A DNA stretch of 64,000 nucleotides, from positions 328,354 to 392,353 of the forward strand of contig CAJXKF010000001.1 in the NCBI GenBank assembly GCA_913055695.1, written 5' to 3'. Every line of letters starts with the position of its first letter. The first letter of the stretch is position 1. Shown in pieces: positions 30,259 to 48,711 of the stretch. The position numbers were made by a program, and so were the translations under genes. Below the pieces are notes generated by a model. The model made no database searches. It saw nothing but the letters and a program-made list of their open reading frames with translations, and was not told where the DNA came from. The stretch is from an uncultured Methylophaga sp. GTDB lineage: Bacteria > Pseudomonadota > Gammaproteobacteria > Nitrosococcales > Methylophagaceae.

Positions 30259-30352
30259 GACCGGACGAATTTCAGGTTTTAATTATTTATCAATAACTTG
30301 AATAAACTCACTCTAAGCAAGCTCTCAAAATGCGATGCTGTTCGACAGAAAT

Positions 30353-30373: not shown

Positions 30374-30404
30374 AGTCAAAATTGAACACACTCTTTAGCG
30401 AGCT

Positions 30405-31856: not shown

Positions 31857-33256
31857 TAACAACTCAGGAAAACACCCTGCTTGTCATAGAAGATGATCAG
31901 GCCCTGGCAGAACTTATCAGCGAAGAACTGGAAACCGCGGGTTGGAATGTCATCATCTCTCACCAGTTAAACGCTGCACTGGCGCAGCTTCAACATAGCC
32001 AGCCGGCGATGATTGTGACCGATATGCGACTGCCCGATGGCGATGGTCTGGATCTGGTGAAACAGGTCAGGCAGTCCAGTGACAACAGTCATGGCCCCGG
32101 GCTCATCGTCATTACCGCATTTGGCAGTGTAAAACAGGCCGTGGCTGCACTGCATGCCGGCGCTGATGACTTTCTGACCAAACCGCTGGATATGGAACAT
32201 TTCCTGCTGGCGGTGTCGCGGGTTGCAGAAGCCAGACAGCTCAAAGTCGAACTGCAACAGTTTCGACAACTCGGCAAGCAGCAGCATTTTTATGGCATGT
32301 TCGGGCAAAGTCCGGCCATGCGAAAATTATTTGAACAAATCAAAATCATTGCCAAATCCCAGGGACCTGTCCTCATCCAGGGTGAGAGTGGCGCCGGTAA
32401 GGAACTGGTCGCCAAAGCACTGCATCAGGAAAGTGATCGTGCTCAAGGACCTTTCCTTGCTGTGAACTGTGCCGGCATTCCTTCTGAACTTCTGGAAAGT
32501 GAGTTTTTCGGTCATGCTGCAGGCGCATTTACCGGTGCAGGAAAGAAACGTAAGGGCCTGATGCAGCAAGCTAACGGCGGCAGTCTGCTGCTGGATGAAA
32601 TCGGCGAAATGCCACTTGCGCTACAGGTCAAACTACTTCGGGCCCTGGAAGACGGATCTGTGCGTCCTGTGGGTCAGGATACTGAAGAAAAAGTCGATGT
32701 TCGCATCATGGCGGCCACCCACCGGGATCTGGAGCAAAAAGTGAAAGATGGCAGTTTCCGCGAGGATCTGTATTACCGTCTTGAAGCATTCGGTCTGTCA
32801 GTACCTGCGCTCAGGGAGCGCGAAGAGGATCAGGAACTGCTGGCCCAGTTATTCCTGCGTCAGTTAGTGTCTGAGCGGGGTGCCAAGGTAAAAGGCTTTG
32901 ATGAAAAAGCGCTCAAGCTGATTCGGGATTACGACTTCCCCGGCAATGTCAGGGAACTGCACAACGTGGTGGAGCGGGCAGTAGCTTTCTGTGATAACGA
33001 CTGGATTGCGCCTCATCACCTGCCCAAGCGTATGCTCACCGGTACCTCACCCATCGTCAACTCAGACAAAGCTGAGGTCCTGCAGAGCAATGAGGAGCAG
33101 GCCTTACTGAGTGGTCCTGTTCTACCGACCTTGCCGGAGTTGCAAAAGCGTTATGTAAGAATGGTCCTCGATACCGTTGAGGGCAATAAGCGGCGTGCAG
33201 CCGCTATTCTCGGTATTGGTCGTAAAACCCTGTATCGCTGGTTGGAAGAAGACTAA
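31853..33256 (+). CDS. Sigma-54-dependent response regulator, NtrC family
   Basis: The 467-residue activator has a receiver domain with phospho-acceptor D57 ([11 protein letters not shown]) and an AAA+ domain with Walker A GESGAGKE (176-183) and the sigma-54 contact loop GAFTGA (223-228). It ends in a Fis-type helix-turn-helix ([19 protein letters not shown]). All activation motifs are intact. It is translationally coupled to the kinase. Its target is probably the sigma-54 promoter of the divergent DUF4168 gene. Confidence 0.93.
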
Positions 33257-33289
33257 TGCACGGGCTTCTTAAGACACAAGCCCGTGCAT
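33256..33289. terminator. Perfect 12-bp hairpin between convergent genes
   Basis: ATGCACGGGCTT (33256-33267) and AAGCCCGTGCAT (33278-33289) are perfectly complementary with a ten-base loop. It begins at the last base of the response regulator stop and lies 50 bases from the end of the convergent channel gene. There is no T-run on either side, so it may act with Rho or as an mRNA 3'-end stabiliser. Confidence 0.55.
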
Positions 33290-33339
33290 CGTCCATATCG
33301 GTGCAGCAAGCGATGCTTTAATGGCAATGATGACAGCGA

Positions 33340-35703
33340 TTACTCGCCATCATCAAAGTCACCTTTTTCAGTCGGATTGTACTCAGCGGATTTGCTTGAG
33401 CGCTCACCGGGTTCTTTGTTAGCTGATTGAACTTCATTAGATGTGTCATTAATCATTTTCACATCATTCAGCATTTTCAGCGGCATCGCCGGTGCATTGC
33501 CCTGCTTGTCCTCACCGAAGTACAGCGTGAGATGCGGGAACGGAATCTCGATACCTGCCGCATCCAGATGGCGTTTAACCAGACGGTTATATTCACGTCC
33601 GATCGCCCATTGATTGCCGGGCAGCGTCTTGATACGAACCCGGATATTAACCGAGCTGTCAGCCAGCGCAGTCACACCGTGTACTTCCAGCTCATCGGAC
33701 AGAATCTTGGCGCGTTGCTCTTCATCAGACAGCAGCTCCTCAAAGGCTTCGCGCAGTTTGATCACGACTTCGTCGGTATCTTCGCGATAAGCCACGCCAT
33801 ATTCTCCGACGTGGTAGGCAAACTCACGCATGTAGTTGGATACGGTATCTACCGAAGAGAACGGAATCACATGATAAGTGCCTGACAAATCACGCAGCCC
33901 CAGAGAACGGATGGTCAGTTTCTCAGCGGTACCGGTCAGGCCGCCCACTGTGACGATATCGCCTGAGTTAATCGCGTTCTCCATCTGAATGAAAACACCG
34001 GTAATCACATCCTGCACCAGTTTCTGGGCACCGAAACCAATCGCCAGACCCAGTACACCGGCACCGGCCAGCAATGGGCCGATATCAATACCGATTTCAG
34101 ACAGCACAATCATCAGTGTCATGACGATGATCACAATGGCTGTGGCATTGCGGAAAATCGTCAGCAGCGTTTTCTCACGCGCACTCGGTTCGCCGCCACC
34201 CTGTTCCGGGTCTAGACGATGTTCGATCCAGCTCGCCAGCGTCATCCAGAACAACGCAGCAATCGCCAGAATAAACAGCACTGAAATCACCGTGGACAGG
34301 AACTCGGTACCTGCAGGAGAAGCCAGCCAAACCGGCAGGTTCACGGCACCCCAGGCATCCAGAATCGCACTGATGACCATCACCAGCACAATGCCTTTCA
34401 GCACTTTGCTGAACATCGGCACAAAGTGGTTGAGTCGAGTTTCAAAGGTCGATAAACGCTGGCTGATAACCGCCGGTACTTTCACTCCGTCGTCCAGCAA
34501 GATTTGAATCAGCCCAATCACGGCCATGCCAACAAAAATGGCCACTGCGGTCTGCAGCGTTGCCATCAGTAACCCTGGCAGCGCGGTGTCCGGTTCAATC
34601 AATAAAGACGCGCCCATGACAAGGAAGTATGCAAACGCCAGCCAGTGCCAGCACTTCGCCAACACGCCAAGCGTGACTCGGGTCATAGAGAAATTGGCTT
34701 TATGCGACAGCGCATTGAGACCGTCTTTGACGTTCTGACGGTTACGGATCACAACGGTAAAGGCATAGCTGACCGCGATAATCACGATAATCAGATTGAT
34801 CAGATTGCCGAGGTTCTGTGACAACTGATTGCTGAACAGCGGTACCAGGAACAACACACCGTAACCGACCAGGCTCACCAGACTCGACAGAAACAGGCTC
34901 CAGTAGCGAGCGGTTTCGGCTTTCATCGGCAACAGCCGCAATGCATCATCACGCCCTGCGAACACAGCCCTGATGAGGACTTTAAACAGCTCAACCGCAA
35001 GGAATACATTCAAAAACAGGCTCTGACTGACGCTGACCTCACCCATTTCACCGACAAAAAGCAGGGCCACAGCGTAACCCGCCAGCCAGGCCAGAATCAC
35101 CACGGCAACATCAGTGACAACACTCAACAGTACAGCAGTCGCTTTCACCACCAGGGGATGAATACCATCCGCTTTGGCAGCCATGTTATCGGCGCGGCGG
35201 AATAGCAATCTGGCAATCGGTCTGAGCAACCAGTAAGCTACCAATGTTGCAGCGATCACCAGACCCAGTTTTATCAGCAGCGTGAAAAAGTCTTTAATGC
35301 TTTTACTCTCACCGTTGACCAGTTCAGACAATGCTGCCCAGCTGCCGGTCAGCGTACCAACAATGACCTGCACAGCAGACTGTGTTTTTTTCGCCACATC
35401 GGTCGCTGCACCGTCTTTTGTTTCAGGGTTGCCTGACTGCGCCTCTTGCTTGGCTTGAGCTTCTCCTGACTGAGTTTGCTCAGAATCAGACATCGATCTG
35501 AGCTCTTCAATCAATTTTTCCCGGCTGGCCGGATCCGACAACACATCGGCCAGTGCCTGATATTTGTCAACGGCACCTTCAGTAGCAGATTGCTGTGCAG
35601 CAAGCTGTGCTGCCCCGGCATAAACCGGTCCGGTAGCCAGCATCAGCCATGCCACCAGTAGCAAACTGAACGTGCTCAAAAAAGATGAGATTGAATAGCG
35701 CAA
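33340..35703 (-). CDS. Large MscS-family mechanosensitive channel
   Basis: The 787-residue protein has a signal peptide (ending near VYAGA), a Gln/Glu-rich periplasmic segment and about ten membrane helices. The MscS core reads GIDIGPLLAGAGVLGLAIGFGAQKLVQDVITGVFI (pore helix, about 575-610), followed by the beta domain (NSGDIVTVGGLTGTAEKLTIRSLGLRDLSG) and a vestibule ending near EIPFPH. A polar acidic tail of about 60 residues follows. It belongs with the larger MscM-type channels; gating by membrane tension is inferred. It is convergent with the two-component genes. Confidence 0.88.
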   Translation of the reverse strand: MRYSISSFLSTFSLLLVAWLMLATGPVYAGAAQLAAQQSATEGAVDKYQALADVLSDPASREKLIEELRSMSDSEQTQSGEAQAKQEAQSGNPETKDGAATDVAKKTQSAVQVIVGTLTGSWAALSELVNGESKSIKDFFTLLIKLGLVIAATLVAYWLLRPIARLLFRRADNMAAKADGIHPLVVKATAVLLSVVTDVAVVILAWLAGYAVALLFVGEMGEVSVSQSLFLNVFLAVELFKVLIRAVFAGRDDALRLLPMKAETARYWSLFLSSLVSLVGYGVLFLVPLFSNQLSQNLGNLINLIIVIIAVSYAFTVVIRNRQNVKDGLNALSHKANFSMTRVTLGVLAKCWHWLAFAYFLVMGASLLIEPDTALPGLLMATLQTAVAIFVGMAVIGLIQILLDDGVKVPAVISQRLSTFETRLNHFVPMFSKVLKGIVLVMVISAILDAWGAVNLPVWLASPAGTEFLSTVISVLFILAIAALFWMTLASWIEHRLDPEQGGGEPSAREKTLLTIFRNATAIVIIVMTLMIVLSEIGIDIGPLLAGAGVLGLAIGFGAQKLVQDVITGVFIQMENAINSGDIVTVGGLTGTAEKLTIRSLGLRDLSGTYHVIPFSSVDTVSNYMREFAYHVGEYGVAYREDTDEVVIKLREAFEELLSDEEQRAKILSDELEVHGVTALADSSVNIRVRIKTLPGNQWAIGREYNRLVKRHLDAAGIEIPFPHLTLYFGEDKQGNAPAMPLKMLNDVKMINDTSNEVQSANKEPGERSSKSAEYNPTEKGDFDDGE

Positions 35704-35836
35704 GATAAACTCCCTGTTCAGTTAAAAATTAGAATTGCGTGAGAGAAAATTGCTCACAACCTTAACAAGACGAATTTATTAACTCAAATCGTGACGCAGA
35801 TAACTCGATTTTAAAAAGCTGACTGTTTAAGATGGC

Positions 35837-36538
35837 GTGAGTTCATTCAAAAAACCTCAATCCATGGACGAAAACATTCTACAAACCCGATTAGCAACGT
35901 TGTTCCAGATTATCCTGGTGGCCGGTGTGGTTGGCGCGCTCTGGGACCAGTCCTGGTTCGATGCTTTCATCATCAGCGGTATTTTTCTGATTACCTTACT
36001 GCCGATGCTGTTTGCCAAAAAATTCGATGTGACCATCCCCGCCGCGTTTCAGTTGCTGACAGTCATTTTCGTCTTCGCCTCGTTATTTTTGGGTGAAGTT
36101 CATGGTTACTACCTCAAAATCTGGTGGTGGGATATCGCCCTGCACACGGTGTCAGGCTTTCTGCTCGGTATCGTCGGTTTTTTGCTGGTCTATGTGATGA
36201 ATGAGACCGAGCGGGTCAGTCTTTATATGAAACCCGGCTTTATCGCCTTTTTTGCCTTTTTATTTGCAGTGGGTGTGGGCGTGTTCTGGGAGTTTTTCGA
36301 ATACGTGGCCGACAAGGTGTTCGACTTCACCATGCAAAAACCGGCTTTCGGTGACAGCACCGGCCTGACTGATACAATCACTGACCTGATGGTCGATAGC
36401 CTGGGTGCCATGATCATCAGCTTTATGGGTTATCGCTACCTGAAAAGACATCCCGGAAAGGGCCTGATACAGCACTGGGTCAGGAATTTCATTAAAAATA
36501 ACCCGCGCATATTCAAGAAGACGCATCAGCGTCATTAA
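35837..36538 (+). CDS. YjdF/DUF2238-like membrane protein
   Basis: A 233-residue (or 224 if the ATG at 35864 is used) membrane protein with six hydrophobic segments. ALHTVSGFLLG, FWEFFEYVAD and DTITDLMVDSLGA resemble the polar residues shared by YjdF/DUF2238 proteins, whose function is unknown. Neither the GTG at 35837 nor the ATG has a strong ribosome site. The MFS gene starts 11 bases after it, so the two are probably one unit. Confidence 0.7.
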   Translation: MSSFKKPQSMDENILQTRLATLFQIILVAGVVGALWDQSWFDAFIISGIFLITLLPMLFAKKFDVTIPAAFQLLTVIFVFASLFLGEVHGYYLKIWWWDIALHTVSGFLLGIVGFLLVYVMNETERVSLYMKPGFIAFFAFLFAVGVGVFWEFFEYVADKVFDFTMQKPAFGDSTGLTDTITDLMVDSLGAMIISFMGYRYLKRHPGKGLIQHWVRNFIKNNPRIFKKTHQRH

Positions 36539-36549
36539 CGGAAGACTTC

Positions 36550-37770
36550 ATGGATTCAGATATTCGTCTCGGCTACGCTGGTTTGCTACGCCGACATTTC
36601 GGTCTGATAGCTGCAGCCTGGCTGGCAGTCTTTACCGGCAACCTGGGCCAGAGCTTTTTCATCGGCCTGTTTCAGTCGGATATCAGTAATCACCTCAACA
36701 TCAGCGCCGGTGAGTTCGGCAGCATCTACGCAGCCATCACTATGACCAGCGGGTTCCTGGTCATGCACTTCGGCCCCAAAATCGACTGGATTGCCCCCAG
36801 ACGCTATGCCCTGACGGTATTATCCGCCCTGTTTTTCGGCGTGCTGATGCTGACTTTATCCCCCTGGTGGGGCCTGGCCGTTTTCGGTCTCGGCCTGCAA
36901 CGACTCTGTGGTCAGGGGCTGATGACGCACCTGGGCAGCACGCTGGCCGGTCGTGAATTTACGCTCAACCGCGGCCGGGCTCTGGGACTCGTCAGTCTGG
37001 GTATGCCTTCCGGTGAAATCATTCTGCCACCGGTCATTGCCCTGCTCGTGACCTGGCTCAGCTGGCAGCAGATCTGGTGGAGCATCGTCGTCGTTCTGGC
37101 AGTGATGTGGATGTTATTGATCCTGTTTGTCGACTGGCCCGAAGCGCCGCGAAAAAAGAAAAGTAAAAACGAACCGCAGGAAAAAGGCCCCTCGCCCATG
37201 CGAGAGCGTCGTTTCTGGATGTTGATCCCGATGTTGATGGTGTTGCCTATCACCCTCACCGGCATCTTTATCTACCAGGCACAAATGACTGAAGACCTGG
37301 GCGCCACCACCACTACCTATGCCTTAGCCCTGACCGGCCTGGGTCTTTCCCGGTTCCCGGGTGCGCTGCTGGGCGGTCGCTGGATTGACGAACTCGGCGT
37401 CACCACGCTTGCCAGGCTGTATCTGCTGCCTTTTGCCATCGCCCTGCTGGCGGCAGCGTTAATTGGCGGCAACATTGCCATCTGGATCATTATGCTTGGT
37501 GCGGGCACGGCTCTGGGCATGTCCTCTCCCATCGGCGACAGCCTGCTGGTCAGACTCTGGGGACGTGAACACCTGGGGCAGGTACGTTCACTCAAGTCAG
37601 CATTTCTGGTGTTTTCAACCGGTCTGGCGCCCGCCTTTCTGGGCTTTATGATTGATGCCGGTGTCCGCTTCCAATCCATATTGCTCGGCATGCTGGTGTT
37701 TCTGGTTATTACCTGGATTATGGCGCAAGGCCCGATTCGGGAGGCACATCAACAACCCGCTGATAGTTAA
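36550..37770 (+). CDS. Major facilitator superfamily transporter
   Basis: The 406-residue product has twelve predicted helices in two halves, with a charged cytoplasmic loop near residue 200 (RKKKSKNEPQEKG). The region between helices 2 and 3 (HFGPKIDWIAPRR) is an altered MFS motif. GGAAG stands before the ATG. No substrate can be inferred. It follows the YjdF-like gene by 11 bases. Confidence 0.85.
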   Translation: MDSDIRLGYAGLLRRHFGLIAAAWLAVFTGNLGQSFFIGLFQSDISNHLNISAGEFGSIYAAITMTSGFLVMHFGPKIDWIAPRRYALTVLSALFFGVLMLTLSPWWGLAVFGLGLQRLCGQGLMTHLGSTLAGREFTLNRGRALGLVSLGMPSGEIILPPVIALLVTWLSWQQIWWSIVVVLAVMWMLLILFVDWPEAPRKKKSKNEPQEKGPSPMRERRFWMLIPMLMVLPITLTGIFIYQAQMTEDLGATTTTYALALTGLGLSRFPGALLGGRWIDELGVTTLARLYLLPFAIALLAAALIGGNIAIWIIMLGAGTALGMSSPIGDSLLVRLWGREHLGQVRSLKSAFLVFSTGLAPAFLGFMIDAGVRFQSILLGMLVFLVITWIMAQGPIREAHQQPADS

Positions 37771-37949
37771 GATTGCGTTGCTCGTTCAGTGTTATGGCAG
37801 AGATAAAGCGGGTTTACCCATCAATAGACGAGCTTGAAATATTCATCGGGTCTTACAAGATTAGATAAAAACTTCTATAACCAAATTAATCAGACCTGAC
37901 AAAACTGAAACTGTGGGCACCAAACCCAGCTCAAGGAGAGTTAGCTGTC

Positions 37950-38336
37950 ATGAATCAAACCAAGTATCTGAGCATCCCCCACTGGTTACCCGGCAATCGA
38001 TGGCACCATTCTCTTATCGATGCTCTGATCATGGCAGTAGGACTGCTGGTTATGGTGATTTCTTATTACAGCAACCCGATTTATCCCGACATTAATCTTA
38101 TCGGCCCCTCCGGCGCCATCCTGATGATTAGCGGTGCCATCGTCGAATATCAGCACAACTCCTACGAAAAAATCGCCATTAATAAATCAATTCTGCACTC
38201 TGCAGACAGTGGTGAGGTAGTGATTTTCTCGTTTGCTCTGCATCGAAAATTAACCAAATGGGCCTCGCATATCTGTGTCATCGCAGGCTCCATCATCTGG
38301 GCTTATGCCAGTGTGTTTCTCAAATTGACCAGCTAA
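37950..38336 (+). CDS. Hypothetical small membrane protein (128 residues)
   Basis: Three hydrophobic segments (about 24-42, 50-65 and 108-125) are separated by short polar loops. AAGGAG lies 11 bases before the ATG, supporting expression. I do not recognise a family. It is the last gene before the accessory stretch that begins at 38337. Confidence 0.6.
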   Translation: MNQTKYLSIPHWLPGNRWHHSLIDALIMAVGLLVMVISYYSNPIYPDINLIGPSGAILMISGAIVEYQHNSYEKIAINKSILHSADSGEVVIFSFALHRKLTKWASHICVIAGSIIWAYASVFLKLTS

Positions 38337-38573
38337 GACTATCAACTGGAGTTAATCAAGTTATCAGATATCTGTTGGTTTTCTCTCGCATGCCAGCATC
38401 TAGCCTTCATAGTTACCGAGCCCTAAATATTGTGAGATATTTCACAACAGGCTGCTTAGCACTTCCAATAGGTTCTCAGTTAGGTTTAAAACTCGGCGTT
38501 AACGCGTATTGGGTTGTTATGATTGCTCCAACAACATCAGGCTCCGCTATCGACTATGACATATGAAGGCGCG

Positions 38574-38603
38574 CTGGAGCTGGAGCTGGAGCTGGAGCTG
38601 GAG
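38574..38603 (+). repeat. (CTGGAG)5 hexanucleotide repeat
   Basis: Five exact copies of CTGGAG in tandem, followed by a partial GATG. If translated in the frame around it, it gives alternating Leu-Glu. A change in copy number would not shift a frame, so it would not act as an on/off switch. Confidence 0.9.
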
Positions 38604-38956
38604 GATGTGCTCATCTTCTATATCTTTCTGACAAGAATTGTATTAGCAATTAGATATGTTACATCGGTATGGATATGGATTTATGGGATGTCTGAGCTAT
38701 GCGTCAGATTTCTTGTTAAAAGCAAAATTTTCGCCCGGTTTCTCAATGTAGAACAAAGGCCAACGAGAGCGTCGGGGCTCGTGGCAAGAAGGTTGTAGTG
38801 TTCGTTACGGTTGCCTTTCCGGTTATTTCATAGCTGCCGTAATGAGTGGAATCAGCCCTAGCTTACAAGTGGTTGTTTTCGGTCAGAAAACAAGGGGGGC
38901 ATCCAGCTTGCTTCCCTTGGTTTGAAGATTAGGAGCACAATAAAAACTTTCCACAC

Positions 38957-38978
38957 TAATGTGAAGCTTGTCACACAT
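38957..38978 (+). promoter_or_regulatory. CRP-like binding site upstream of the nuclease gene
   Basis: TGTGA-AGCTTG-TCACA (38960-38975) matches both half-sites of the CRP consensus TGTGA-N6-TCACA exactly, with AA on the left flank and CAT on the right. It is 101 bases before the ATG at 39076. A TATCTT (38992-38997) downstream could be the -10 element of an activated promoter. Confidence 0.6.
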
Positions 38979-39075
38979 ATCCAATACGGGCTATCTTGAT
39001 AGTCAGGCTCTTCAATCAGTCTGCCTGCCACGGCAAGCCGGGAGTTTTACTAAGGGATGAGACAAGGACTTCACT

Positions 39076-40947
39076 ATGAAACTTCAGCAAATTCTCTCCA
39101 GCCTGAATCTTCTAGAAAAAACCAAATTTATTAATTGTTTGGATAAATTGTGCACTGCTAAAGAGGCAGATGATGCTTCTATTTCAAAGGTAGTTGAAAG
39201 TTTAAACGGCAAGATGAAATACGCATCAGGACGCGAGATTGCTGATATTTTTAATGTCGTGTCAGATCAATTCAGGACTCACATAAAAGAGCAATTATCG
39301 TTTTCAGGTGCATCCGTAAAACTCTTGGTTAATATCATTACTCGAGATGGTAACGCCGTTGCAAGAAGAAGCTGGATCGAAAAGCTTTACACCGATGAGT
39401 GCAAAGGTCTCGGTAAGTTATTGCAAGAAATTCAATGCGAAATCGAACAATCAGACAAATCAAGTTACGATCGTGCTCATAGGTTGAGTATCTTCAATAA
39501 TTGCCTTGAGGTCGCATACAAGAATGACTTAAAGAATAAACGTCAGGAGAATATCTCTGATGATGAGAGAAGCGTTCTCAATCAACTCGCAAAAGACCTG
39601 AAAATTTCAAATGATGAATTCTCTGCAATTGAGCATTTATACGATCCTATAAAAGCAGACAAAAACACTATAGAAGACAGCCTCAACACACTTCGTGAAA
39701 TGGGTGTGATCTTTATCAAAAAGAAAGAGGAAATCTATATTGCTGATGAAATCGTCAGAATCATCAACGACATCAACGAGAAAGAGCTAAGCGATAAATA
39801 TTTGCTGAGAATTCTTCGAGCGTTGTCGGATGCAGAACTCTCCAGCATCCTCAAAAATCACGGAAAAAGAATCAGAGGCGTCGAGCGTACGGAAAAAATT
39901 AAAACCATCATTCACTCTGGCATTTCTATTAGAGAAGTTCTCCAGAATGAAATATTTGATGAATCTGAGAGCCTCAATAATAGAAAAGACAGAATCAAAG
40001 CCTTAATGTCCGATTTGAATATTGAAGCTGACCGGCTTGGCTCAACACTTGAGGAAAGAGTCGGCATACTCATTGAGGCATTAAATTCAGCGACCGAGAG
40101 AGAATTTAACGCTATTAGCGCTACCAGCTACAAAGAAATGTATGCAACGCTTGAGTCAAGTTTTAATCAGATCAATGGTGACGGTAAAAACGAGAAATTG
40201 TCAGTTAGAATCAAGCGTGAATTCGAGTTAGAACCTGCAGAAGAAGTCTCTACAGAGCGTTTAAGAGCGTTATCTATTACCCCTCACGATATTCTTTACT
40301 TGCTTTCCAATGAGGAGATCAAATTCCTAAGGGATAAACTAGGACTCTCAAAAAGAGGTGATCCAAGGCTTAATATTCTTAATTCTTTTGCAAATGCCAA
40401 CGATAAACTTATTGAGGAGTACGTAGCTCTGTCTCGAAGAGATCTGCCCGCGCTCAGACAGGCCGCGATAGAAATCAATGAGGCGGACATTGGTGCGAAA
40501 TTTGAAGAAGTGACTAAGACCATATTCGAAGAAATGGGATTAGTCGTTGAGGAAGACATACGTAAAGCAGTGAATACAAGTAAAGACAAGGCGGATATCA
40601 TCATCTCCATCAGTGATGATGACATCATCGTGGGTGAAGCAAAGACCTGCAAAGATGGTGACTTTGCCAAGTACTCGACAACCTCAAGACAAGTCAAAGC
40701 CTATGTTAGACGCTGTGAGAGTCAGGGAAAGCGAGTCGCTCAAACCTTGATTATTGCCCCCAGCTTTTCAGATGATTTTATTGAGTCGGCCCAAATGGAT
40801 ACAGAGATCAATATCTCACTACTGACTTCAGATGGGCTGAAGCAAATTTATGATGCCTACCGCTCAAAGCGAAAGCCAAACTTCTCAGCAAAGCTTCTGA
40901 CGAAAGGCGGCCTTTTAAAATCAGATTTGATTGCCAAGAATATATAA
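39076..40947 (+). CDS. Orphan multidomain protein with Mrr-like PD-(D/E)XK nuclease core
   Basis: A 623-residue cytoplasmic protein, clearly more A+T-rich than its neighbours. I do not recognise the full-length family. The C-terminal domain (about 470-600) has the order of a restriction-endonuclease fold: helix GAKFEEVTKTIFEEMGL with E478, KADIII with D507, then GEAKT with E521 and K523, then a helix starting RQVKAY. Two SAP-like segments, 252-282 and 412-438 (IKFLRDKLGLSKRGDPRL), could bind DNA. Residues 160-190 resemble a TerB-like helical domain, and 195-230 a winged helix. It stands alone with its own ribosome site and a CRP-like site. DNA cleavage, perhaps defence against foreign DNA, is inferred. 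Confidence 0.75.
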   Translation: MKLQQILSSLNLLEKTKFINCLDKLCTAKEADDASISKVVESLNGKMKYASGREIADIFNVVSDQFRTHIKEQLSFSGASVKLLVNIITRDGNAVARRSWIEKLYTDECKGLGKLLQEIQCEIEQSDKSSYDRAHRLSIFNNCLEVAYKNDLKNKRQENISDDERSVLNQLAKDLKISNDEFSAIEHLYDPIKADKNTIEDSLNTLREMGVIFIKKKEEIYIADEIVRIINDINEKELSDKYLLRILRALSDAELSSILKNHGKRIRGVERTEKIKTIIHSGISIREVLQNEIFDESESLNNRKDRIKALMSDLNIEADRLGSTLEERVGILIEALNSATEREFNAISATSYKEMYATLESSFNQINGDGKNEKLSVRIKREFELEPAEEVSTERLRALSITPHDILYLLSNEEIKFLRDKLGLSKRGDPRLNILNSFANANDKLIEEYVALSRRDLPALRQAAIEINEADIGAKFEEVTKTIFEEMGLVVEEDIRKAVNTSKDKADIIISISDDDIIVGEAKTCKDGDFAKYSTTSRQVKAYVRRCESQGKRVAQTLIIAPSFSDDFIESAQMDTEINISLLTSDGLKQIYDAYRSKRKPNFSAKLLTKGGLLKSDLIAKNI

Positions 40948-41099
40948 TACTTAGGTTTGAGGACTGGAGCATATAAACACAAGTCAGCCAACTTGATGTA
41001 GTCGTAATCAATGGGGTTAGACACGATTGATGAACGGTTAATACACGCCATCCGCAGGCTAGAAATCAATCAAACTATAGTGAAGCACCATTCAAATCG

Positions 41100-42071
41100 T
41101 CAACGAGCAGGCAAAACTGGCTCTGGTGTCAAAAACGGCTCTGGATCGACCGGGCCGCCTGAATAAATCCCGAAGTGCAGATGCGGTGGTGTGGTTCTGG
41201 CATTACCGGTATTGCCCACATAACCGATGATCTCACCTTTTTGGACGTCTTCGCCGGAGCTGACCACAAAGCCATCCAGATGGGCGTAATAATAACGGGC
41301 ACCGTAAGGACTGAGCAGACCGCCTGTGAGCCAGATATGTTTACCGCCGATCCCGCCTGTGCCTGTCCGAACCTGGCCATCGATGACTGCGGTTACCGGG
41401 GTGCGCTTATCGGCAAAGATATCCACGCCGTGATGTTCTCTGGCGCCGCCATCCCGTGGATCACCGAAAACACTGCCGATATCACGCCTTGACGCCGACT
41501 CAACCGGCATCGGCAGTGAGCCGCCGTGGGCGATAGCCAGCGAATATTCAACGCTGGCAAACAGTTCCGGCTGCAGGACAAAACGATAGTCATCGGACTG
41601 AGAGATAAACCGGCTTTTGATCGCCTTATCTGTATCCAGGTCCGTTATCGTTGTCCAGTTCTGACTACCTTTTTCACGTCGCTCCAAACTGGCGAAAAGC
41701 CGGTTGTCCGCCTCATCCAGCCGGGAAAATTGCCAGATGAGTTTCTGGCCTTGTTCAAGTGTTAGCTGATAAACGTCAGCACTGATTTCATCACGGGAAA
41801 ATTCATTTACTGTGCGATAGGCAGAACCGGTCTGTACTGGATTTTTACTTGCTTCTTCAACTGCCCCCACCCATTGTTTGCCCAGAGGGCTATCCAGTAA
41901 CCCGGCAAAACGTAAACGCAGTATAAAAAGTTCACGAGGCGACCACCCCAGCACATCATAGGCGAGGTAACCGAAGGCATCTTCAAAGGTTTCTGATGCG
42001 TCCTGACGCAAATCATCACGAGTAATCAGCAGTGCTATCAGTAGAACCAAGAAGCAAAGCAGTAAGCACAA
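41100..42071 (-). CDS. M23-family metallopeptidase (LytM-type), N-terminus apparently broken by a stop
   Basis: The frame encodes a membrane helix (LLLCFLVLLIALLI), a helical and beta-rich middle, and a C-terminal M23 domain with metal ligands in HHGVDIFA and HLHFGIY. It is a periplasmic murein endopeptidase or activator. The only start, TTG at 42071, has no good ribosome site and truncates the cytoplasmic side. The same frame continues upstream across a single TAA (42092-42090) to an ATG at 42191, giving 33 polar codons ending in VQGK. The intact ancestor was probably a type II membrane protein. Whether this copy is expressed is unclear. Confidence 0.75.
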   Translation of the reverse strand: MCLLLCFLVLLIALLITRDDLRQDASETFEDAFGYLAYDVLGWSPRELFILRLRFAGLLDSPLGKQWVGAVEEASKNPVQTGSAYRTVNEFSRDEISADVYQLTLEQGQKLIWQFSRLDEADNRLFASLERREKGSQNWTTITDLDTDKAIKSRFISQSDDYRFVLQPELFASVEYSLAIAHGGSLPMPVESASRRDIGSVFGDPRDGGAREHHGVDIFADKRTPVTAVIDGQVRTGTGGIGGKHIWLTGGLLSPYGARYYYAHLDGFVVSSGEDVQKGEIIGYVGNTGNARTTPPHLHFGIYSGGPVDPEPFLTPEPVLPAR

Positions 42072-42089
42072 GCGCAGCAGCGCACTGCC

Positions 42090-42191
42090 TTATTTGCCTT
42101 GTACAGCATTCACGCTGGTTTGAACTTCTGTTGGTGGACTGTCAGTGTTGGATTGTTTCAGGCTCTCAGAGGCCTTGTTCGGGTCGCTCAT
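42090..42191 (-). pseudogene. Short in-frame upstream segment of the M23 gene (33 codons and TAA)
   Basis: ATG at 42191, 33 polar codons rich in Ser, Gln and Thr, then TAA at 42092-42090. It is in the same phase as the M23 frame, seven codons before its TTG. An even longer start (42215) is in frame. The composition suits the cytoplasmic tail of a single-pass membrane protein, so I read it as the severed N-terminus. A genuine small upstream ORF or a sequencing error are alternatives. Confidence 0.45.
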
Positions 42192-42348
42192 TCGCAAACT
42201 TACCATTGTCGTCATGGGTTATCATGTGGTTGAAGCTATAGTCATGGACGAATGCTGATGCTTGAAAGTTTGGCCTTTTTTGAATCCAACACAGTTTTAG
42301 TATTCAATCACTACTACTTAAGTCAACAAAACCAAAAAGACGAACCCA

Positions 42349-43290
42349 ATGAATTTTTTCTCAACGGCTAAAACGCTCTTACTGGCTTTTTCTCTAACAC
42401 AGCTACTGGCCTGTACTTCCACTACTATCGTCCCCGCCCCGTCACAATCTGAAGAGATCGCGGTTCAGTTCACAGATGAGAGTTTGTCCGGCTTTTTTGA
42501 TTTACCCGGTGGTATCCACCGGGTGCCCAACAGCCAGGTCATTATTTCGGGGCATCAATCCGGTGGCTGGGTCAGCTCGATACTGGGGCCGATAGGCCTT
42601 TCCCTTCAAAGTGCTATCGACGCGGAGAATTCTGCAACCGCGATTCAGGATGCCGAGGCCTTACTGCAATTCAGGTTAACCGAAGCCGCCGATGCGATTG
42701 CTGAAGATTTGATTGTGCAGCCTGAGTTTGCGGGTGCTTACACTAACTTCGCTACAGCCCGCACCCCGGTGCTTGAAGTGAAAAGCGCCGTGATTCTCAC
42801 TTTTCAGAACGAGACGGATGTCAAACCCTATGTGCTGCTCCAGGCGGCACTGAAAGATGCCAGAGCCAACACCGATATCTGGTGGAGCCGTTATATTTCG
42901 TCCTCCGGACCTGCCCGACCGTTTTCAGGTGAAAACGGCTGGACAGCCAATGACGGTCAGGCTTTTGAAGATAATATTGCTCAAAACCTGGAAAAAGCCA
43001 TCAGACTGATGCTGACCGATGTTGCCTCTCCCTACCAACGCTACGCCAGCGATCTGGTTACGGTTCAGGGCTATTATCCTTATGTCAGGTACAAAATGCA
43101 GACTGTGGGCTACAAACTCTATGAAACTGACGATACGCTTGCCTATGTGCCGAAGCTGGGAGATGCCATCGTGTTTTCCGGCGTTCATCTGATTGATAAA
43201 TCCACGGTGGATATCCGTCCCACCCAGGAAGGTGACGAGGTTTACAAAGTGATTGAGGAGGAGACCGGCGAGAAGAGCCAGGCCGAATAA
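42349..43290 (+). CDS. Hypothetical lipoprotein 1 (313 residues)
   Basis: The lipobox LLAC places the lipidated Cys at residue 22. The mature protein begins with a Pro/Ser linker, then LPGGIHRVPNSQVIISGHQSGGW, an Ala-rich helical segment and a beta-rich domain with IDKSTVDIRPTQEGDEVYKV at the end. I do not recognise the family. It is the first of three consecutive lipoprotein genes on the same strand. A possible promoter is TTGAAT (42280) with TTCAAT (42303). Confidence 0.7.
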   Translation: MNFFSTAKTLLLAFSLTQLLACTSTTIVPAPSQSEEIAVQFTDESLSGFFDLPGGIHRVPNSQVIISGHQSGGWVSSILGPIGLSLQSAIDAENSATAIQDAEALLQFRLTEAADAIAEDLIVQPEFAGAYTNFATARTPVLEVKSAVILTFQNETDVKPYVLLQAALKDARANTDIWWSRYISSSGPARPFSGENGWTANDGQAFEDNIAQNLEKAIRLMLTDVASPYQRYASDLVTVQGYYPYVRYKMQTVGYKLYETDDTLAYVPKLGDAIVFSGVHLIDKSTVDIRPTQEGDEVYKVIEEETGEKSQAE

Positions 43291-43477
43291 AGCTGAGGCT
43301 CTAGCCATCTAAGCTTGGCTTTTATGTGAGGCACAGCTATTATCTTAAGCGCTTGAAGCATGAGTCATTGCAGAAATAGCTCATGTTGAATTTTAAATAA
43401 CCATGGACTGGTTAATTGCAAAAGCCTTCACGGCAATTCGTCGATGAGCTTGATAATTCAAAAGGATTTGATGAAAC

Positions 43478-44185
43478 ATGTTTCGCCATCTACTACTGCT
43501 GCTCGTCAGCCTGAGTCTTACTGCCTGTTCAACAATCACTGGTCAAAGCGCATTTCGTTACGACGCCAGCCCCACACTGGATAAAGCGTCTTATCTTCAG
43601 TCTGATAGCAATGCCGGCGTGGTGCTGGTCGATGTGAACTGGTCAAGATACTGGGGCTGTGGGGACTATGAAAACGCGCAGCTGTTCTATCTTGGCTTTC
43701 ACAAGCTCCCGGTAGCGAGTAACACTGCCCCGTCCACACCCGACTTAGTACTCAACAATCCTGCACAGCTACTCGCCAAAAACCGGTTCGAAAGTTATGC
43801 CTATCTGGTCTCTCCCGGCACCTATGCTTTGACTGATATCAGCCTTAAACTAGCTCGTTCAGTCAACATCATCCGTCACTTTGTCACCGATAAATCCAAG
43901 CTCATTAAAGACGATGAGCCGCTGGCGGGAACCTTTACCGTCAAGCCCGGCGAAGTGGTCTATATCGGAAACTTCTATCTCGATTGCACTATTGATCCCA
44001 TGCCGTGGCGTTATTACACCAAGGCTGAGCACTTTGATGAAGGACTTGAGGGCTATCGCGCAAAATATCCTTTTCTGAAACTTGACGACGTGCAATACCG
44101 TTTGTTTGAAACCGATATGCTCGGTCACGACTACGCTCCCCCGAAACAGGATAAGCTGAAACAGGCAGAAGGAACTAAAAAATGA
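43478..44185 (+). CDS. Hypothetical lipoprotein 2 (235 residues)
   Basis: The lipobox LTAC gives a lipidated Cys at residue 17. The mature part is beta-rich, with NWSRYWGCGDYENAQLFYLG and later SPGTYALTDISLKL and KPGEVVYIGNFYLDC. The last two segments look like a beta-sandwich of the kind found in small surface lipoproteins. The stop overlaps the ATG of lipoprotein 3 (ATGA), so these two are coupled. Lipoprotein 1 ends 187 bases upstream. Confidence 0.7.
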   Translation: MFRHLLLLLVSLSLTACSTITGQSAFRYDASPTLDKASYLQSDSNAGVVLVDVNWSRYWGCGDYENAQLFYLGFHKLPVASNTAPSTPDLVLNNPAQLLAKNRFESYAYLVSPGTYALTDISLKLARSVNIIRHFVTDKSKLIKDDEPLAGTFTVKPGEVVYIGNFYLDCTIDPMPWRYYTKAEHFDEGLEGYRAKYPFLKLDDVQYRLFETDMLGHDYAPPKQDKLKQAEGTKK

Positions 44186-44784
44186 AAATGGCACTAAAAT
44201 TGTGTCTGGCGCTGTTTGCGCTGTTGCAGAGCTCATGTGCCACACAGTCGCTCTATGAGCCGGTTAACACAAGCGATAGAATTGGTGGATATCTGGTCTC
44301 CGCAGACAGAGAAAACTTGGTTATTATCGGTGAAAAATATCATTACATTGCCTCACTCAATCAAGCATTGGCAAACATTATCGGCTGGGATAAGCAGACA
44401 ATACTCGCGGTTGATCATGGCTCATTCAGACTCAATGACCATGAGAATGTGCATATTCGTTTTAATTTGTCAGTGGCTACTGAATCAGTCACTGAGGAGG
44501 AGCTAGAATTTCTAGTGGCGAATGGCTTTGAGCTTGAACAATCCAAACTGATCTATCGTGCCTCATTGGATGGCAATTATTACTTGGCTGGGAATGTCAG
44601 CAACACACGCACATTTTCCAAAAAATATACCGTCAACATCATTAAAGATAGAAATCCGATTATCAAAGCGGCTTTGACTCCTATCACTGTTGCTGTTGAT
44701 GGAGTGTTGGTGCTGGGCTTTGTGGCCCTTTTCAGCGTTTTTTGCATCACCGCTGATCTGTCAGGTCATCAGTGCATGACTTAA
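44182..44784 (+). CDS. Hypothetical lipoprotein 3 (200 residues)
   Basis: The signal peptide ends in LQSSC (Cys19), an acceptable lipobox. The middle part is mixed alpha/beta with YHYIASLNQALANIIGW and ILAVDHGSFRLNDHENVHIRF. The C-terminal 35 residues include a hydrophobic stretch (VAVDGVLVLGFVALFSVFCI), likely a second membrane contact. Four-base overlap with lipoprotein 2 points to joint expression and perhaps a common complex. No family is recognised. Confidence 0.65.
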   Translation: MKMALKLCLALFALLQSSCATQSLYEPVNTSDRIGGYLVSADRENLVIIGEKYHYIASLNQALANIIGWDKQTILAVDHGSFRLNDHENVHIRFNLSVATESVTEEELEFLVANGFELEQSKLIYRASLDGNYYLAGNVSNTRTFSKKYTVNIIKDRNPIIKAALTPITVAVDGVLVLGFVALFSVFCITADLSGHQCMT

Positions 44785-44985
44785 CTTTACAGGGAGGAAT
44801 CAAAAAATTATTGACTTCCCTCAGATTTGAGCGGATGATACTCCTAGCTAGAAATTAAGCCCTCCGTTTACATTCTCCACTTCGTTGCATCTTGTTGTTC
44901 TTCGTCCTGTAGATCTAAATTCCGGTCTGTTTCACGCTACACCTGCCCATAAGGGCGATTTTTACTTATCTACAGGATAATCAAT
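44785..44985 (+). promoter_or_regulatory. Upstream region and probable long 5' leader of the cold-shock gene
   Basis: A TTGACT at 44811-44816 is a good -35 box; GATACT at 44837-44842 is the nearest -10-like element, although the spacing (20) is long. If used, the leader is about 135 nt, in line with the long structured leaders of cold-inducible csp genes. A good ribosome site (CAGGA) precedes the ATG. Confidence 0.4.
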
Positions 44986-45195
44986 ATGTCTACTACCGTT
45001 ACTGGTACCGTTAAGTGGTTTAACGAAACAAAAGGTTTTGGTTTTATCGAACAAGCTTCAGGCCCGGATGTTTTCGCTCATTACAGCGCCATCAAAAGCT
45101 CAGGTTTCAAAACCCTGGCTGAAGGTCAGAAAGTAGAATTCACAGTCACTACTGGTCCTAAAGGTCCACAGGCTGAAAATATCATCGCTCTGTAA
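44986..45195 (+). CDS. CspA-family cold shock protein
   Basis: The 69-residue OB-fold protein has RNP1 KGFGFI and RNP2 [25 protein letters not shown] at the start and [10 protein letters not shown] at the end are characteristic. It binds single-stranded RNA or DNA as a chaperone. The VFAHYSAI motif has Ala-His-Tyr in place of the common VHFS, a frequent variant. A strong terminator follows. Which Csp paralogue it is cannot be said. Confidence 0.94.
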
Positions 45196-45215
45196 ACTGA
45201 GCTGATATCTGAAAG

Positions 45216-45244
45216 AAGGCAAGCCAAGTGCTTGCCTTTTTTTT
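45216..45244 (+). terminator. Rho-independent terminator of the cold-shock gene
   Basis: AAGGCAAGC (45216-45224) pairs perfectly with GCTTGCCTT (45230-45238) over a five-base loop, followed by a run of T to 45244. It lies 20 bases after the stop codon. Confidence 0.93.
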
Positions 45245-45661
45245 GCCTTTTTCTGGACCTGCGCGCCGTCATGGCCTTGGGCGTAAAGCTTTGAATCCCT
45301 TTTGTTGCCTTCACCGGACCCTGCCGGAAAGCTTCAGCTTCAACCGTAAGACCATCACTGCCGATGGCTCACATGTCTTACATTGATCTGTATCTGAATT
45401 GTCAGCCTACCTATGCGTCGTTATTTGCGGCTGATACTTGTTCCAGCGTGGTACAAACTGCGTAGATTGTCAGCGCCGCGGCGGAAAAACTATGCAGCTC
45501 ATGTTTCAGAATATCACGGCATAAGCAGGAATGTGCCAGGACTCGGGACCATACAGCTTTGTGTTCGACATGCATCCCGGGACCTTGATCCCCTGAATAT
45601 CTCTTGTAGAGTGAGGTTTGACAACCAAATTTTCTCGCAAGAAAAATGAAAGGTGGTTCAG
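45245..45661. other. 417-bp stretch without a confident gene
   Basis: Frames on both strands at about 45411-45686 overlap each other, lack ribosome sites and look random. The right end supplies the ribosome site AAAGGTGG for the transporter gene at 45662. I see no RNA gene or repeat. Confidence 0.5.
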
Positions 45662-46585
45662 ATGAAAACCTGGTTACTATTGGCACTAATCACCATGTCG
45701 GAAGCTACCATTGGTGTTTTTGTGAAACTGACCGATGGCCGAATTCCGGTTCAGACCCTGACTTTTTATGCCTTTGTTTGCGCCACGCTATTTCTGATGC
45801 TGGCTATGCCGAAAGCAAACAAACAACCCCTTGAATTACCCCATGGTAACTGGAAGGACACTATTCTTATCGGTGCCCTGATTGCAGCACAAAGCGGTTT
45901 TTTTAACTATGCCATGACGCTGGTGCCAATTGCCAATGCCGTTATTTTCTGGAGTGTCGCGCCTTTCTTCACCTTTATCCTATCCTGGTTGTTTCTGGGT
46001 GAGAAAGCCAAAAAGAGCTATATCTTCATCTTCGCAATTGCCTTGACCGGTATCATCATTGCCAAGCCATTACAGGATGGCTATTTGCTGGGCAATATGG
46101 TGGCCTTGGGTGTGGGCGCCATCTATGCAGCCATGATTACCTATATGCGACATGAAGGAAAAACCGAAACAGACAACGATATCGCCTGGTCGATGCTGGT
46201 TGCCGCGATTATCCTCTCGCCATCGGTGATTTTTGCCGGCATCGGTGATGTCAGCGCCATGATTCACTACAATAGCCTCGGACTCTCTCTGCCCGTGATG
46301 CTCTGGCCGGCAGGGCTGGGACTCATCTCCATCGGCTTCGCCTATTTCGGTATCTCGATTGTATTGAAATCGATCAATGCCAATGCTTATTCACTGGTGG
46401 ATATTATGGTGTCTCCGGTGGTGGCGACGCTGTGGGGGTTTATAATCTTTAATGAAGTGCCGCCGATAAGCATGCTCTATGGTGGCGTCTTGATACTGGG
46501 AGCTGGTGCCTGGCTTACAAAAGAGATGACTGACAGTGTGCCGAATCGTGCCGTCAATACCAGCTATTCTGCATCGACGAATTGA
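45662..46585 (+). CDS. EamA/DMT-family transporter
   Basis: The ATG at 45662, with AAAGGTGG just upstream, gives 307 residues. Ten hydrophobic helices are arranged as two EamA repeats: AIANAVIFWSVAPFFTFILSW in the first half, and NANAYSLVDIMVSPVVATLWG with FNEVPP in the second, the classic end of an EamA repeat. This family exports amino acids or other metabolites; the substrate is not predictable. Confidence 0.88.
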   Translation: MKTWLLLALITMSEATIGVFVKLTDGRIPVQTLTFYAFVCATLFLMLAMPKANKQPLELPHGNWKDTILIGALIAAQSGFFNYAMTLVPIANAVIFWSVAPFFTFILSWLFLGEKAKKSYIFIFAIALTGIIIAKPLQDGYLLGNMVALGVGAIYAAMITYMRHEGKTETDNDIAWSMLVAAIILSPSVIFAGIGDVSAMIHYNSLGLSLPVMLWPAGLGLISIGFAYFGISIVLKSINANAYSLVDIMVSPVVATLWGFIIFNEVPPISMLYGGVLILGAGAWLTKEMTDSVPNRAVNTSYSASTN

Positions 46586-46714
46586 AACGGCTTCAACAGT
46601 ATTTGCTTTTACTCTATTCGCTCCCTTGTCGATAATCAGAAACCGGACGCAACATACTGGACATATCCCTGTCGGAATGATGAACTAGAATTGCAAAATA
46701 GCCGAGGAAGCTGC

Positions 46715-48241
46715 ATGCCCGAAGATCTGCATATTAAAATCCGTAATCTGGAAAAGCAGGACTACCCGCAGCTTAAGGATTTGATGGATCAGATTTATCA
46801 GGACATCGGCGGTTCCTGGCCGGAACACACCATCTTTAAACTCATTGATGACCTGCCCGAAGGACAAATCTGTGTCGTCGACCACGATCGCATCATTGGC
46901 GTGGCCCTGGCTGTGCAGGTCGATTATCAACAGTTCAGTAACCCGCATACCTACGATGATCTGATTTCCAAGCGCGAGACGATTCTCAATAATTCCAACG
47001 GCGATGCGCTCTACGGCCTGGATGTGCTGATTCATCCGGATTACCGCGGCTATCGTCTGGGTCGTCGCTTGTATGAAGCCCGCAAAGAGCTTTGCCGCCA
47101 GCATAATCTGCGTGCCATCCTGGCCGGTGGCCGGATCCCTAACTATCACGAGCATGCTGACGAGATGTCGCCGGCGGAATATTTCGAGGCTGTGAAGAAT
47201 AAGCGGATTTATGACCCGATTCTGACTTTCCAGCTGTCCAATGACTTCCAGGTCACCCGCCTGCTCAAGCAATATCTGCCGGAAGATGAAAAGTCACAGG
47301 GTTACGCGACCCTGCTTGAATGGCGCAATATCTTCTACGAGCCGGAAACCACGGTAATTCAAACCCGCAAAACACAGGTCCGTATCGGCGCTATTCAATG
47401 GCAGATGCGTGAAGTGCACTCGGTGCAGGAATGCCTGAACCAGGTCGAATACTTTATCGATGCACTGTCCAACTACAAAAGCGACTTTGCACTGTTTCCG
47501 GAATTTTTTAACGCGGCGTTGATGGGCCTTAGCCCCAACCAGCGAAACCAGACTGAAGCCATAAGGTTCCTGGCGGCTTTTACCGAAAAATTCAAAAATG
47601 AAATGTCGCAAATGGCGGTGAGTTACAACATCAACGTCATCACCGGCTCAATGCCGTTGCTGGAAGATGATGTGCTGTATAACGTCACCTATCTTTGCCG
47701 GCGGGATGGCACTATCGAACTGCAGCGTAAACTGCATATCACCCCGCATGAGCGCCGCGACTGGGTGATTGAGGGTGGCGATCATGTACAGGTGTTCGAG
47801 ACCGATGCCGGCCGTATCGGCATTCTGATTTGTTATGACGTCGAGTTCCCGGAACTGGGCCGGATCCTGGCCGCTCAGGATATGGATATTCTGTTTGTGC
47901 CCTACTGGACCGATACCAAGAACGGCTACCTACGGGTCCGTAGCTGTGCCCAGGCAAGGGCGATTGAAAACGAATGTTATGTCGTCATCTGTGGCAGCTG
48001 CGGCAACCTGCCCCAGGTGGAAAACCTGGATGTGCAGTATTCACAGGCCGCCGTATTTTCACCGTCTGACTTTTCCTATCCACATGATGCCGTGATGGCG
48101 GAAACCACACCCAACACCGAGATGATCATGTTCTCCGATCTCGACTTGGACAAACTCAAACTGACCCGCAGTGAGGGCTCGGTGAATAATCTCAAGGATC
48201 GACGTCAGGATCTCTACAAGGTGTCCTGGCTTAATAAATAA
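46715..48241 (+). CDS. Fusion of GNAT acetyltransferase and carbon-nitrogen hydrolase
   Basis: I take the ATG at 46715, with GAGGAAG upstream (508 residues). The N-terminal part (about 1-215) is a GNAT domain with LDVLIHPDYRGYRLGRRLYEAR as the acetyl-CoA loop. The C-terminal part (about 225-500) is a nitrilase-family hydrolase with the triad Glu in FPEFFNAAL, Lys in RKLHITPHER and Cys in GILICYDVEFPE. This two-domain architecture is known in databases as a bifunctional protein, but I know no proven substrate. It presumably acts on an amide whose amine the GNAT domain modifies. Confidence 0.9.
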   Translation: MPEDLHIKIRNLEKQDYPQLKDLMDQIYQDIGGSWPEHTIFKLIDDLPEGQICVVDHDRIIGVALAVQVDYQQFSNPHTYDDLISKRETILNNSNGDALYGLDVLIHPDYRGYRLGRRLYEARKELCRQHNLRAILAGGRIPNYHEHADEMSPAEYFEAVKNKRIYDPILTFQLSNDFQVTRLLKQYLPEDEKSQGYATLLEWRNIFYEPETTVIQTRKTQVRIGAIQWQMREVHSVQECLNQVEYFIDALSNYKSDFALFPEFFNAALMGLSPNQRNQTEAIRFLAAFTEKFKNEMSQMAVSYNINVITGSMPLLEDDVLYNVTYLCRRDGTIELQRKLHITPHERRDWVIEGGDHVQVFETDAGRIGILICYDVEFPELGRILAAQDMDILFVPYWTDTKNGYLRVRSCAQARAIENECYVVICGSCGNLPQVENLDVQYSQAAVFSPSDFSYPHDAVMAETTPNTEMIMFSDLDLDKLKLTRSEGSVNNLKDRRQDLYKVSWLNK

Positions 48242-48266
48242 TCTGACTCAGATAGAGGGAGACATT

Positions 48267-48695
48267 ATGACGCCAGCTGTCAGCAGTGCTTATTACATGG
48301 CGCTTTGGGCCATTTTTGCGATTTTAGTTATCTGGCTGGTGCAGTGGTTTATTGCCAGTTCAAGCAAGGCCCGCTATCCGGGTGCGATTCCCGGCAAACT
48401 GCCACCTGAAATCAGCCATGAATCCTTCGTATTCAGGGCGCATCGCACCTTCATGAATTCGCTGGAAAACCTGCCGATCTTGCTCAGCACCGCTTTTCTG
48501 GCGATTTTTGTCGGAGTCAGTCCCTTCTGGACCGGTGTATTGTTATGGGTTTATGCCCTCGCTCGCCTCGGCCATATGATTCTCTACTACAAAATTGCCA
48601 CCGAAAAGAACCCGAGCCCGCGGACTTTTTTCTTTATGATCGGTTTTCTGGCCAATATTGGCTTGCTGCTGATGTGCGGTCTGACACTGCTGTGA
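48267..48695 (+). CDS. MAPEG-family membrane protein
   Basis: A 142-residue protein with four hydrophobic helices and the MAPEG pattern: ISHESFVFRAHRTFMNSLENLPILL (Arg-Ala-His...Asn-Ser-Glu-Asn), then YALARLGHMILYY and a last helix. MAPEG proteins include glutathione transferases and peroxidases of lipophilic substrates. It follows the GNAT-nitrilase gene by 25 bases and may be co-transcribed. The bacterial substrate is unknown. Confidence 0.85.
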   Translation: MTPAVSSAYYMALWAIFAILVIWLVQWFIASSSKARYPGAIPGKLPPEISHESFVFRAHRTFMNSLENLPILLSTAFLAIFVGVSPFWTGVLLWVYALARLGHMILYYKIATEKNPSPRTFFFMIGFLANIGLLLMCGLTLL

Positions 48696-48711
48696 ACGGT
48701 TGGAACTCTAT

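Follow-up and report, generated by a model that had tools for sequence, protein, structure and literature searches.

A solitary gammaproteobacterial gene for a predicted FokI-type nuclease and its possible role in defence

What might a solitary gene of foreign-looking composition do for the bacterium which carries it? The question is raised by a stretch of 64,000 nucleotides from an uncultured Methylophaga sp., referred to here in its entirety as the window, in which a 623-codon frame at 39076..40947 on the + strand encodes a protein of 623 amino acids, P0001. An earlier sequence-only reading had described an A+T-rich orphan gene with an Mrr-like nuclease core, which would act by itself in defence or in DNA damage. 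The frame, taken from the list of open reading frames (ORFs) and its translation, is real and intact, and is present as a single copy in its own genome of 2.61 Mb. Its composition does deviate as had been claimed: in windows of 1 kb the G+C content is 0.38-0.42 across the gene compared with 0.47-0.57 in most of those adjoining it, a few others nearby also being low at 0.43-0.45. The best explanation found is that the product is a self-sufficient, restriction-like defence nuclease encoded by one gene, a reading to which we give a probability of about 0.5.

The nuclease assignment comes from sequence motif and predicted fold. The C-terminal domain is one with the motif and, in the predicted structure, the core fold of the PD-(D/E)XK superfamily; it is predicted to cleave DNA, which would make P0001 an active nuclease. 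The AlphaFold model of the protein (mean predicted local distance difference test score, pLDDT, 87.6; predicted template modelling score, pTM, 0.73) has a C-terminal part which superimposes on FokI with a Z score of 14.5 over 150 residues at 2.8 Å, and on R.BspD6I2 with a Z score of 12.4 over 155 residues at 3.5 Å; N.BspD6I is matched as well. Matches at Z 8-10 comprise AF1548, HindIII, Hna, Avs4, EcoT38I and a cullin. In a plain Foldseek search FokI again comes top with an E-value of 0.0015, no match reaching 0.001 or below, and a library of viral structures yielded no match at E≤0.001. The fold on which the sequence-only reading had staked itself is thus present in the model. The domain of FokI/BspD6I type spans residues 439-616 (40390..40923, +), its borders being those of the structural matches to BspD6I. 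Within it, the ordered acidic and lysine residues pointed out earlier are all present and are invariant in the 49 intact copies aligned (alignment A2): E478 (codon 40507..40509, +), D507, a proposed metal ligand (40594..40596, +), and E521 and K523 of the E521-A-K523 triplet, a proposed metal ligand and catalytic lysine respectively (40636..40644, +). The alignment holds 48 intact loci and the window copy, and leaves out nine broken copies, the partial loci L066 and L071, three plasmid records and L012. Across residues 466-600 the mean conservation is 0.85 and 45 of 135 positions are invariant; the tail at 601-623 is slightly higher at 0.886, and the remaining parts of the protein are lower.

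Ahead of the nuclease domain lie two further parts which are candidates for a recognition module. Residues 79-229 (39310..39762, +) form a long helix and a probable winged-helix domain. This region matches the winged helices of cullins, PadR and RPC62 with Z scores of 7.2-8.5 over 60-73 residues, values under 8 being such as may reflect merely a common arrangement, and weak Pfam matches to several winged-helix families are found both for P0001 and for members of its family; the winged helix suspected earlier is therefore probable. It is followed by a conserved, all-helical module at residues 226-468 (39751..40479, +), the fragment model of which has a pLDDT of 88.5. Modelled alone, this module has no fold match, the best Z score being 2.4 among the 150 chains ranked top by Foldseek. 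The two SAP-like segments proposed for this region were not borne out, P0001 having no Pfam SAP match at E≤1 and the 49 members none at E≤0.05; segments at approximately 248-285 and 405-438 do look SAP-like by eye, and neither profile nor fold searches support them, although domains this small are easily missed. No profile match was found, in P0001 or in the 49 members, for the TerB-like helical domain which had also been suggested.

The description of the gene as an orphan proved wrong. P0001 matches phrog_34709, a family listed as of unknown function, over its full length with an E-value of 2.7e-229, and full-length homologues at 46-65% identity occur in many Gammaproteobacteria. Scans of genome and viral contigs with the single sequence returned no relatives; those based on an alignment found 57 loci in genome contigs and 2 in viral contigs, and three further loci come from large replicons of Pseudoalteromonas which are listed as plasmids. 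The alignment-based scans started from eight copies and used two short peptide patterns each, so that these counts are lower bounds. A tblastn search with two queries found no relatives at E≤0.01 in 50,697 phage records, and a profile built from the 49 copies found no weaker ones at E≤0.01 in 398 genomes of the phylum, and the family is thus compact. It is also patchy: with the window's own genome included in each count, the gene is present in 4 of 58 relatives, 2 of 369 genomes of the class and 4 of 398 genomes of the phylum. Two genomes of the same genus and one of the same family account for the other carriers among the relatives, whilst in another family 4 of 150 genomes carry the gene, one copy being broken. 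The hosts belong mostly to genera which we take to be marine, though some are metagenome-assembled genomes (MAGs) whose naming may be wrong. Nothing above cut-off was found for P0001 in Pfam, PADLOC or NCBIfam, and no description of the family was found among the matches listed by the literature searches. As far as these searches and the four databases Pfam, PADLOC, NCBIfam and PHROGs extend, this is a real family of stand-alone nucleases of predicted FokI type, found in variable regions and viral contigs and often near defence genes, without a described function.

The viral contigs and the protein tree suggest that the gene moves. On one viral contig (L070), tape measure, baseplate and fibre genes precede the nuclease gene, with one gene of unknown function on the opposite strand between them; most of these genes recur on the other (L071), where the nuclease is represented by residues 1-227 alone. 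Both contigs are probably prophages. The protein tree mixes genera, requiring 23 label changes by a quick method where the minimum possible is 18, and a copy from a Colwellia MAG pairs with one from Pseudoalteromonas with a support of 99. Such mixing alone is no proof, but transfer of the gene between species appears probable. Broken copies are found at 9 of 57 loci, six caused by one nonsense change and three by a frameshift. The six nonsense changes sit at six different places; six of the nine broken copies are in named isolates and three in MAGs, where assembly error is possible.

The gene also appears to stand alone. A comparison of neighbours at 64 loci, with flanks of up to 10-15 kb and shorter ones at contig ends, found no neighbour family common to more than 12 of them, and so there is no fixed partner, nor do the homologues occupy one fixed housekeeping neighbourhood. 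The nearest neighbours, once merged at 40% identity, remain distinct in 53 of 58 cases downstream and 46 of 59 upstream. At 57 of 61 loci the gene has a lower G+C content than the far flank. In the window itself, no methylase, helicase or antitoxin is seen among the adjoining ORFs, as the sequence-only reading had held; this comes from the ORF list read by eye, the family search having covered the 128-aa ORF alone. A co-directional gene ending within 130 bp upstream occurs at just 7 of 60 loci compared with 329 of 728 control ORFs (p=1e-7), and because such close upstream genes are rare the nuclease gene would form an autonomous transcription unit, which suggests that it has its own promoter. 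In the window this promoter presumably lies in the A+T-rich stretch at 38340..39075 (+), for which neither the ORF list nor comparison with genomes of the genus gives a convincing gene. Reading by eye of the 170 bases before the gene at 63 of 64 loci revealed no shared upstream operator, similarity being confined to within lineages.

Taken together, the invariant motif, the FokI-type fold, the defence neighbours, the want of a fixed partner, the patchiness, the viral contigs and the broken copies are what lead to the defence reading. In the proposed mechanism, the N-terminal winged helix and the helical middle would recognise unwanted DNA or a state induced by phage, whereupon the FokI-type domain, through D507, E521 and K523 together with E478, would cut DNA. 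The DNA cut could be that of the invader, as in restriction, or any in the cell, as in abortive infection. The gene would be transcribed alone and, requiring neither a fixed partner nor a methylase, could move between islands, plasmid-like replicons and prophages. In this scheme both the recognised target and the anti-phage role are inferred.

The surroundings of the gene favour a defensive role in part, and other observations weigh against it. PADLOC models matched at E≤1e-10 number 101 for the 53 downstream proteins, 59 for the 46 upstream proteins and 8 for 60 control ORFs, drawn at random from 244 merged ORFs at a distance of over 6.5 kb; these figures, however, count overlapping models, one AAA ATPase alone matching 91 at E≤1e-5. 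Reading the model lists (the best 25 of 101 downstream, all 8 for the controls) gives an estimate of approximately nine to eleven defence-matching proteins among 53 downstream against four or five among 60 controls, and the enrichment near defence genes which had been anticipated is therefore present but modest. Downstream examples, from hand-picked sets of 10 and 10 proteins, include SIR2, AbiD/Abi_2, putAbiC, KAP, PDC-S06 and AriA/PtuA-like proteins; at some loci, by contrast, the neighbours are as ordinary as FlhB, a histone deacetylase or a 2-hydroxyacid dehydrogenase. PADLOC-DB 2.0.0 contains no anti-phage profile which matches P0001, giving only Csa3 at E 0.23. Promoter-like sites upstream of the gene are no commoner than in shuffled sequence (6 against 5.5 expected), and the broken-copy rate of 9/57 is a figure for the nuclease gene alone. 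Finally, the ratio of nonsynonymous to synonymous substitution rates (dN/dS) of the gene is 0.011-0.042, with a median of 0.027, against a neighbour median of 0.071 over 87 comparisons in the same pairs, which repeat some genes across pairs and are thus not independent. Values were obtained for 11 of 14 pairs, comparisons with dS below 0.03 or above 2 being dropped; another run gave the same range in 11 of 12 pairs, one being saturated. Of the neighbour comparisons 16% fall below the nuclease gene, although in one Methylophaga pair (L014/L016) the ratios of eight neighbours out of ten do not exceed that of the gene. Such low ratios are unexpected for a sensor engaged in an arms race.

This combination, a gene dispensable and patchy yet highly constrained, is the most unusual trait of the nuclease gene, and the strong purifying selection suggests an invariant target. 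Given that constraint, a phage protein would be a less likely target than a modified base, a structure in the DNA or some conserved component of the host. A tentative and more specific version of the defence reading, possible rather than probable, is that of a single-protein anti-phage nuclease in which a FokI-type cutter is joined to a helical recognition module reading an invariant feature of the invading DNA or of an attacked host component; a target so hard to escape would explain why a patchy, often lost gene is more constrained than most of its neighbours. The proposal that the enzyme is type IV-like, cutting DNA solely when it carries modified bases (hydroxymethyl- or glucosyl-cytosine, for example, or foreign methylation), would explain both the missing methylase and a constant target. 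It is consistent with the lack of any constant methylase partner or of a neighbour family at more than 12 of 64 loci, with constraint imposed by one invariant chemical target, and with the arrangement of a winged helix and a PD-(D/E)XK domain, which is that of Mrr; yet it is unlikely overall, since Mrr_cat is matched below cut-off and in just 1 of 49 members, and no match to Mrr_N, SRA or YTH appears in Pfam at E≤1, albeit in searches whose HMMER filters drop most weak matches.

Other roles for a constrained nuclease have to be considered alongside defence. An accessory nuclease of DNA repair or recombination would sit well with a median dN/dS of 0.027 and with the fact that the 53 downstream neighbours include a single DNA ligase and a single RecR-type protein, whereas a gene which is patchy, often broken, carried on viral contigs and located near defence genes is hardly what such a role predicts, and we regard it as improbable. 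The viral contigs and the large plasmid-listed replicons could also be expected of a selfish nuclease which serves its carrier element in competition between elements, be it homing-like or in plasmid or phage exclusion. A common insertion target is not seen, however, contexts differ between lineages and no tRNA lies within window 30000-50000, leaving this very improbable.

A further idea, that a conserved sensor or nuclease module exchanges a downstream effector gene (SIR2, Abi, KAP and others) placed right behind its stop codon, drew on three observations. At 24 of 60 loci a gene in the same orientation begins no more than 130 bp behind it, these genes falling into 21 groups by BLAST at E≤1e-3; within the same sites of Rheinheimera, Methylophaga and Pseudoalteromonas the upstream DNA and the gene itself are conserved and homology ends at the stop codon; and the genes which follow are often defence genes. 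As a special property of this gene, exchangeable cargo was nonetheless rejected by two controls, for which the other genes at these loci served. A nearby downstream gene in the same orientation is equally common for those genes (307/730 against 24/59, p=0.89), and homology blocks ending within 10 bp of the stop codon are frequent among them too (57/79 against 43/46 for the nuclease gene). Nor is the end of the gene repeated beyond the cargo in the 21 loci inspected by eye, and the idea keeps a very low probability. A recombination site at the 3' end was likewise rejected: when the last 36 bases were sought by eye in the 7 kb downstream at 21 of 64 loci, none of the matches stood out, the best being 25 of 36 letters. 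Silent positions at the 3' end of the gene vary between lineages.

One pair of Pseudoalteromonas loci (L002 and L030) differs at the end of the gene. As far as the stop codon their DNA agrees at 98% over 10.8 kb, with different genes behind it, and the final 51 bases of the gene are 86% identical, with silent changes and a changed stop, as against 97-100% in the 120-base blocks which precede them. The divergent gene end may be due to ordinary recombination nearby.

Other neighbours recur at small numbers of loci. At L022 (4209-9986) and L025 a protein of 1926 aa ends 12 bp before the nuclease gene, and relatives of this protein are also found near it at L041 and L042; the upstream set contains one PADLOC match to PDC-S37 (E 0), which may be the 1926-aa protein. 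At L002, L003, L028, L029 and L030 the variable stretch is bordered by a convergent helicase, for which the annotation in L002 and L003 is DEAD/DEAH or DUF3427. At L002, L004 and their relatives the nuclease gene is preceded by an HNH endonuclease gene.

In the window, the nuclease gene is part of a variable insertion at 37771..42348, between an MFS (major facilitator superfamily) gene and a lipoprotein gene. In a relative (G003) the same two genes are only about 20 bp apart, which defines the empty site, and the 4.58 kb between them in the window are occupied by the nuclease gene together with a 128-aa ORF and an M23-type peptidase ORF. The gene names used here (MFS, lipoprotein, M23 peptidase) were assigned by eye from the ORF list. 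The insertion is thus larger than the A+T-rich stretch. The 128-aa ORF (37950-38336, +) has a weak, below cut-off similarity to MerC and nothing above cut-off in the family search; it is without a relative in the 37 other genomes searched, being present in 1 of 38, its own. Of 23 further genomes of the genus, 9 contain close homologues (64-67% identity) of the M23-type peptidase ORF (41100-42071, -); five of these nine also gave a match to the MFS gene, and there the homologue lies on another contig or more than 1 Mb away from it. Neither ORF is thought to be part of the nuclease system. In the same 23 genomes, matches to the upstream stretch at 38340..39075 are limited to a short GGAGCT repeat and a few adjacent bases. 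This repeat, at window 38573-38603, is also matched in 11 further genomes from the genus, often in the form of longer arrays and with up to 39 overlapping matches in one genome, and is probably a low-complexity repeat.

The wider interest of the family lies in the problem which any stand-alone defence nuclease has to solve, namely to distinguish self from non-self with neither a methylase nor a guide. Here a compact family combines clear catalytic residues, a middle module without a solved-fold match and strong purifying selection. If the defence reading is true, the feature sensed would be something which phages cannot easily change.

How, then, does the family compare with known systems? By the tests run, it cannot be classed as Mrr, as Shedu or as a type IIS restriction-modification system, although it has something in common with each. 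As regards the Mrr-like label, the nuclease part stands, whilst the Mrr part is loose. A weak Mrr_cat match covers residues 473-590 (E 0.0083) and a winged helix precedes the nuclease; AF1548, which we take to be akin to Mrr, is matched with a Z score of 9.8 over 116 residues at 2.9 Å. On the other hand, the Mrr_cat match reaches 16.7 bits where the cut-off is 21, only one of the 49 members has it at E≤0.05, and the best structural match is FokI. Mrr, furthermore, is about half the size of P0001, which has extra helical parts. Shedu (SduA) is likewise a single gene, encoding a PD-(D/E)XK nuclease which has a sensor part of its own at the N-terminus, and gives Z scores of 7.3 (140 residues, 4.2 Å) and 6.9 (146 residues, 4.7 Å); these are tied with those of many nucleases, however, and no Shedu profile in Pfam or PADLOC is matched at E≤1. 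A homing endonuclease would be expected at a single conserved target site, whereas here the contexts vary among the 64 loci. In contrast to type IIS restriction-modification systems, no methylase is seen by eye beside the window gene and none is constant across the 64 loci, a check which covers neighbours only, not all of them annotated, and thus leaves room for an unlinked methylase. In some Pseudoalteromonas the site-bound neighbours include a class I S-adenosylmethionine (SAM)-dependent methyltransferase, and in the upstream set PADLOC methyltransferase models are matched by one neighbour each. P0001 differs from the FokI type in that it is not found by sequence among chains of the PDB at E≤1, and in that its middle part at 226-468 has no counterpart found there. 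The closest structural parallel is with FokI, Nt.BspD6I and R.BspD6I2, with which P0001 shares the predicted fold of the C-terminal cleavage domain and the order of its parts, a winged-helix region at the N-terminus and the nuclease at the C-terminus.

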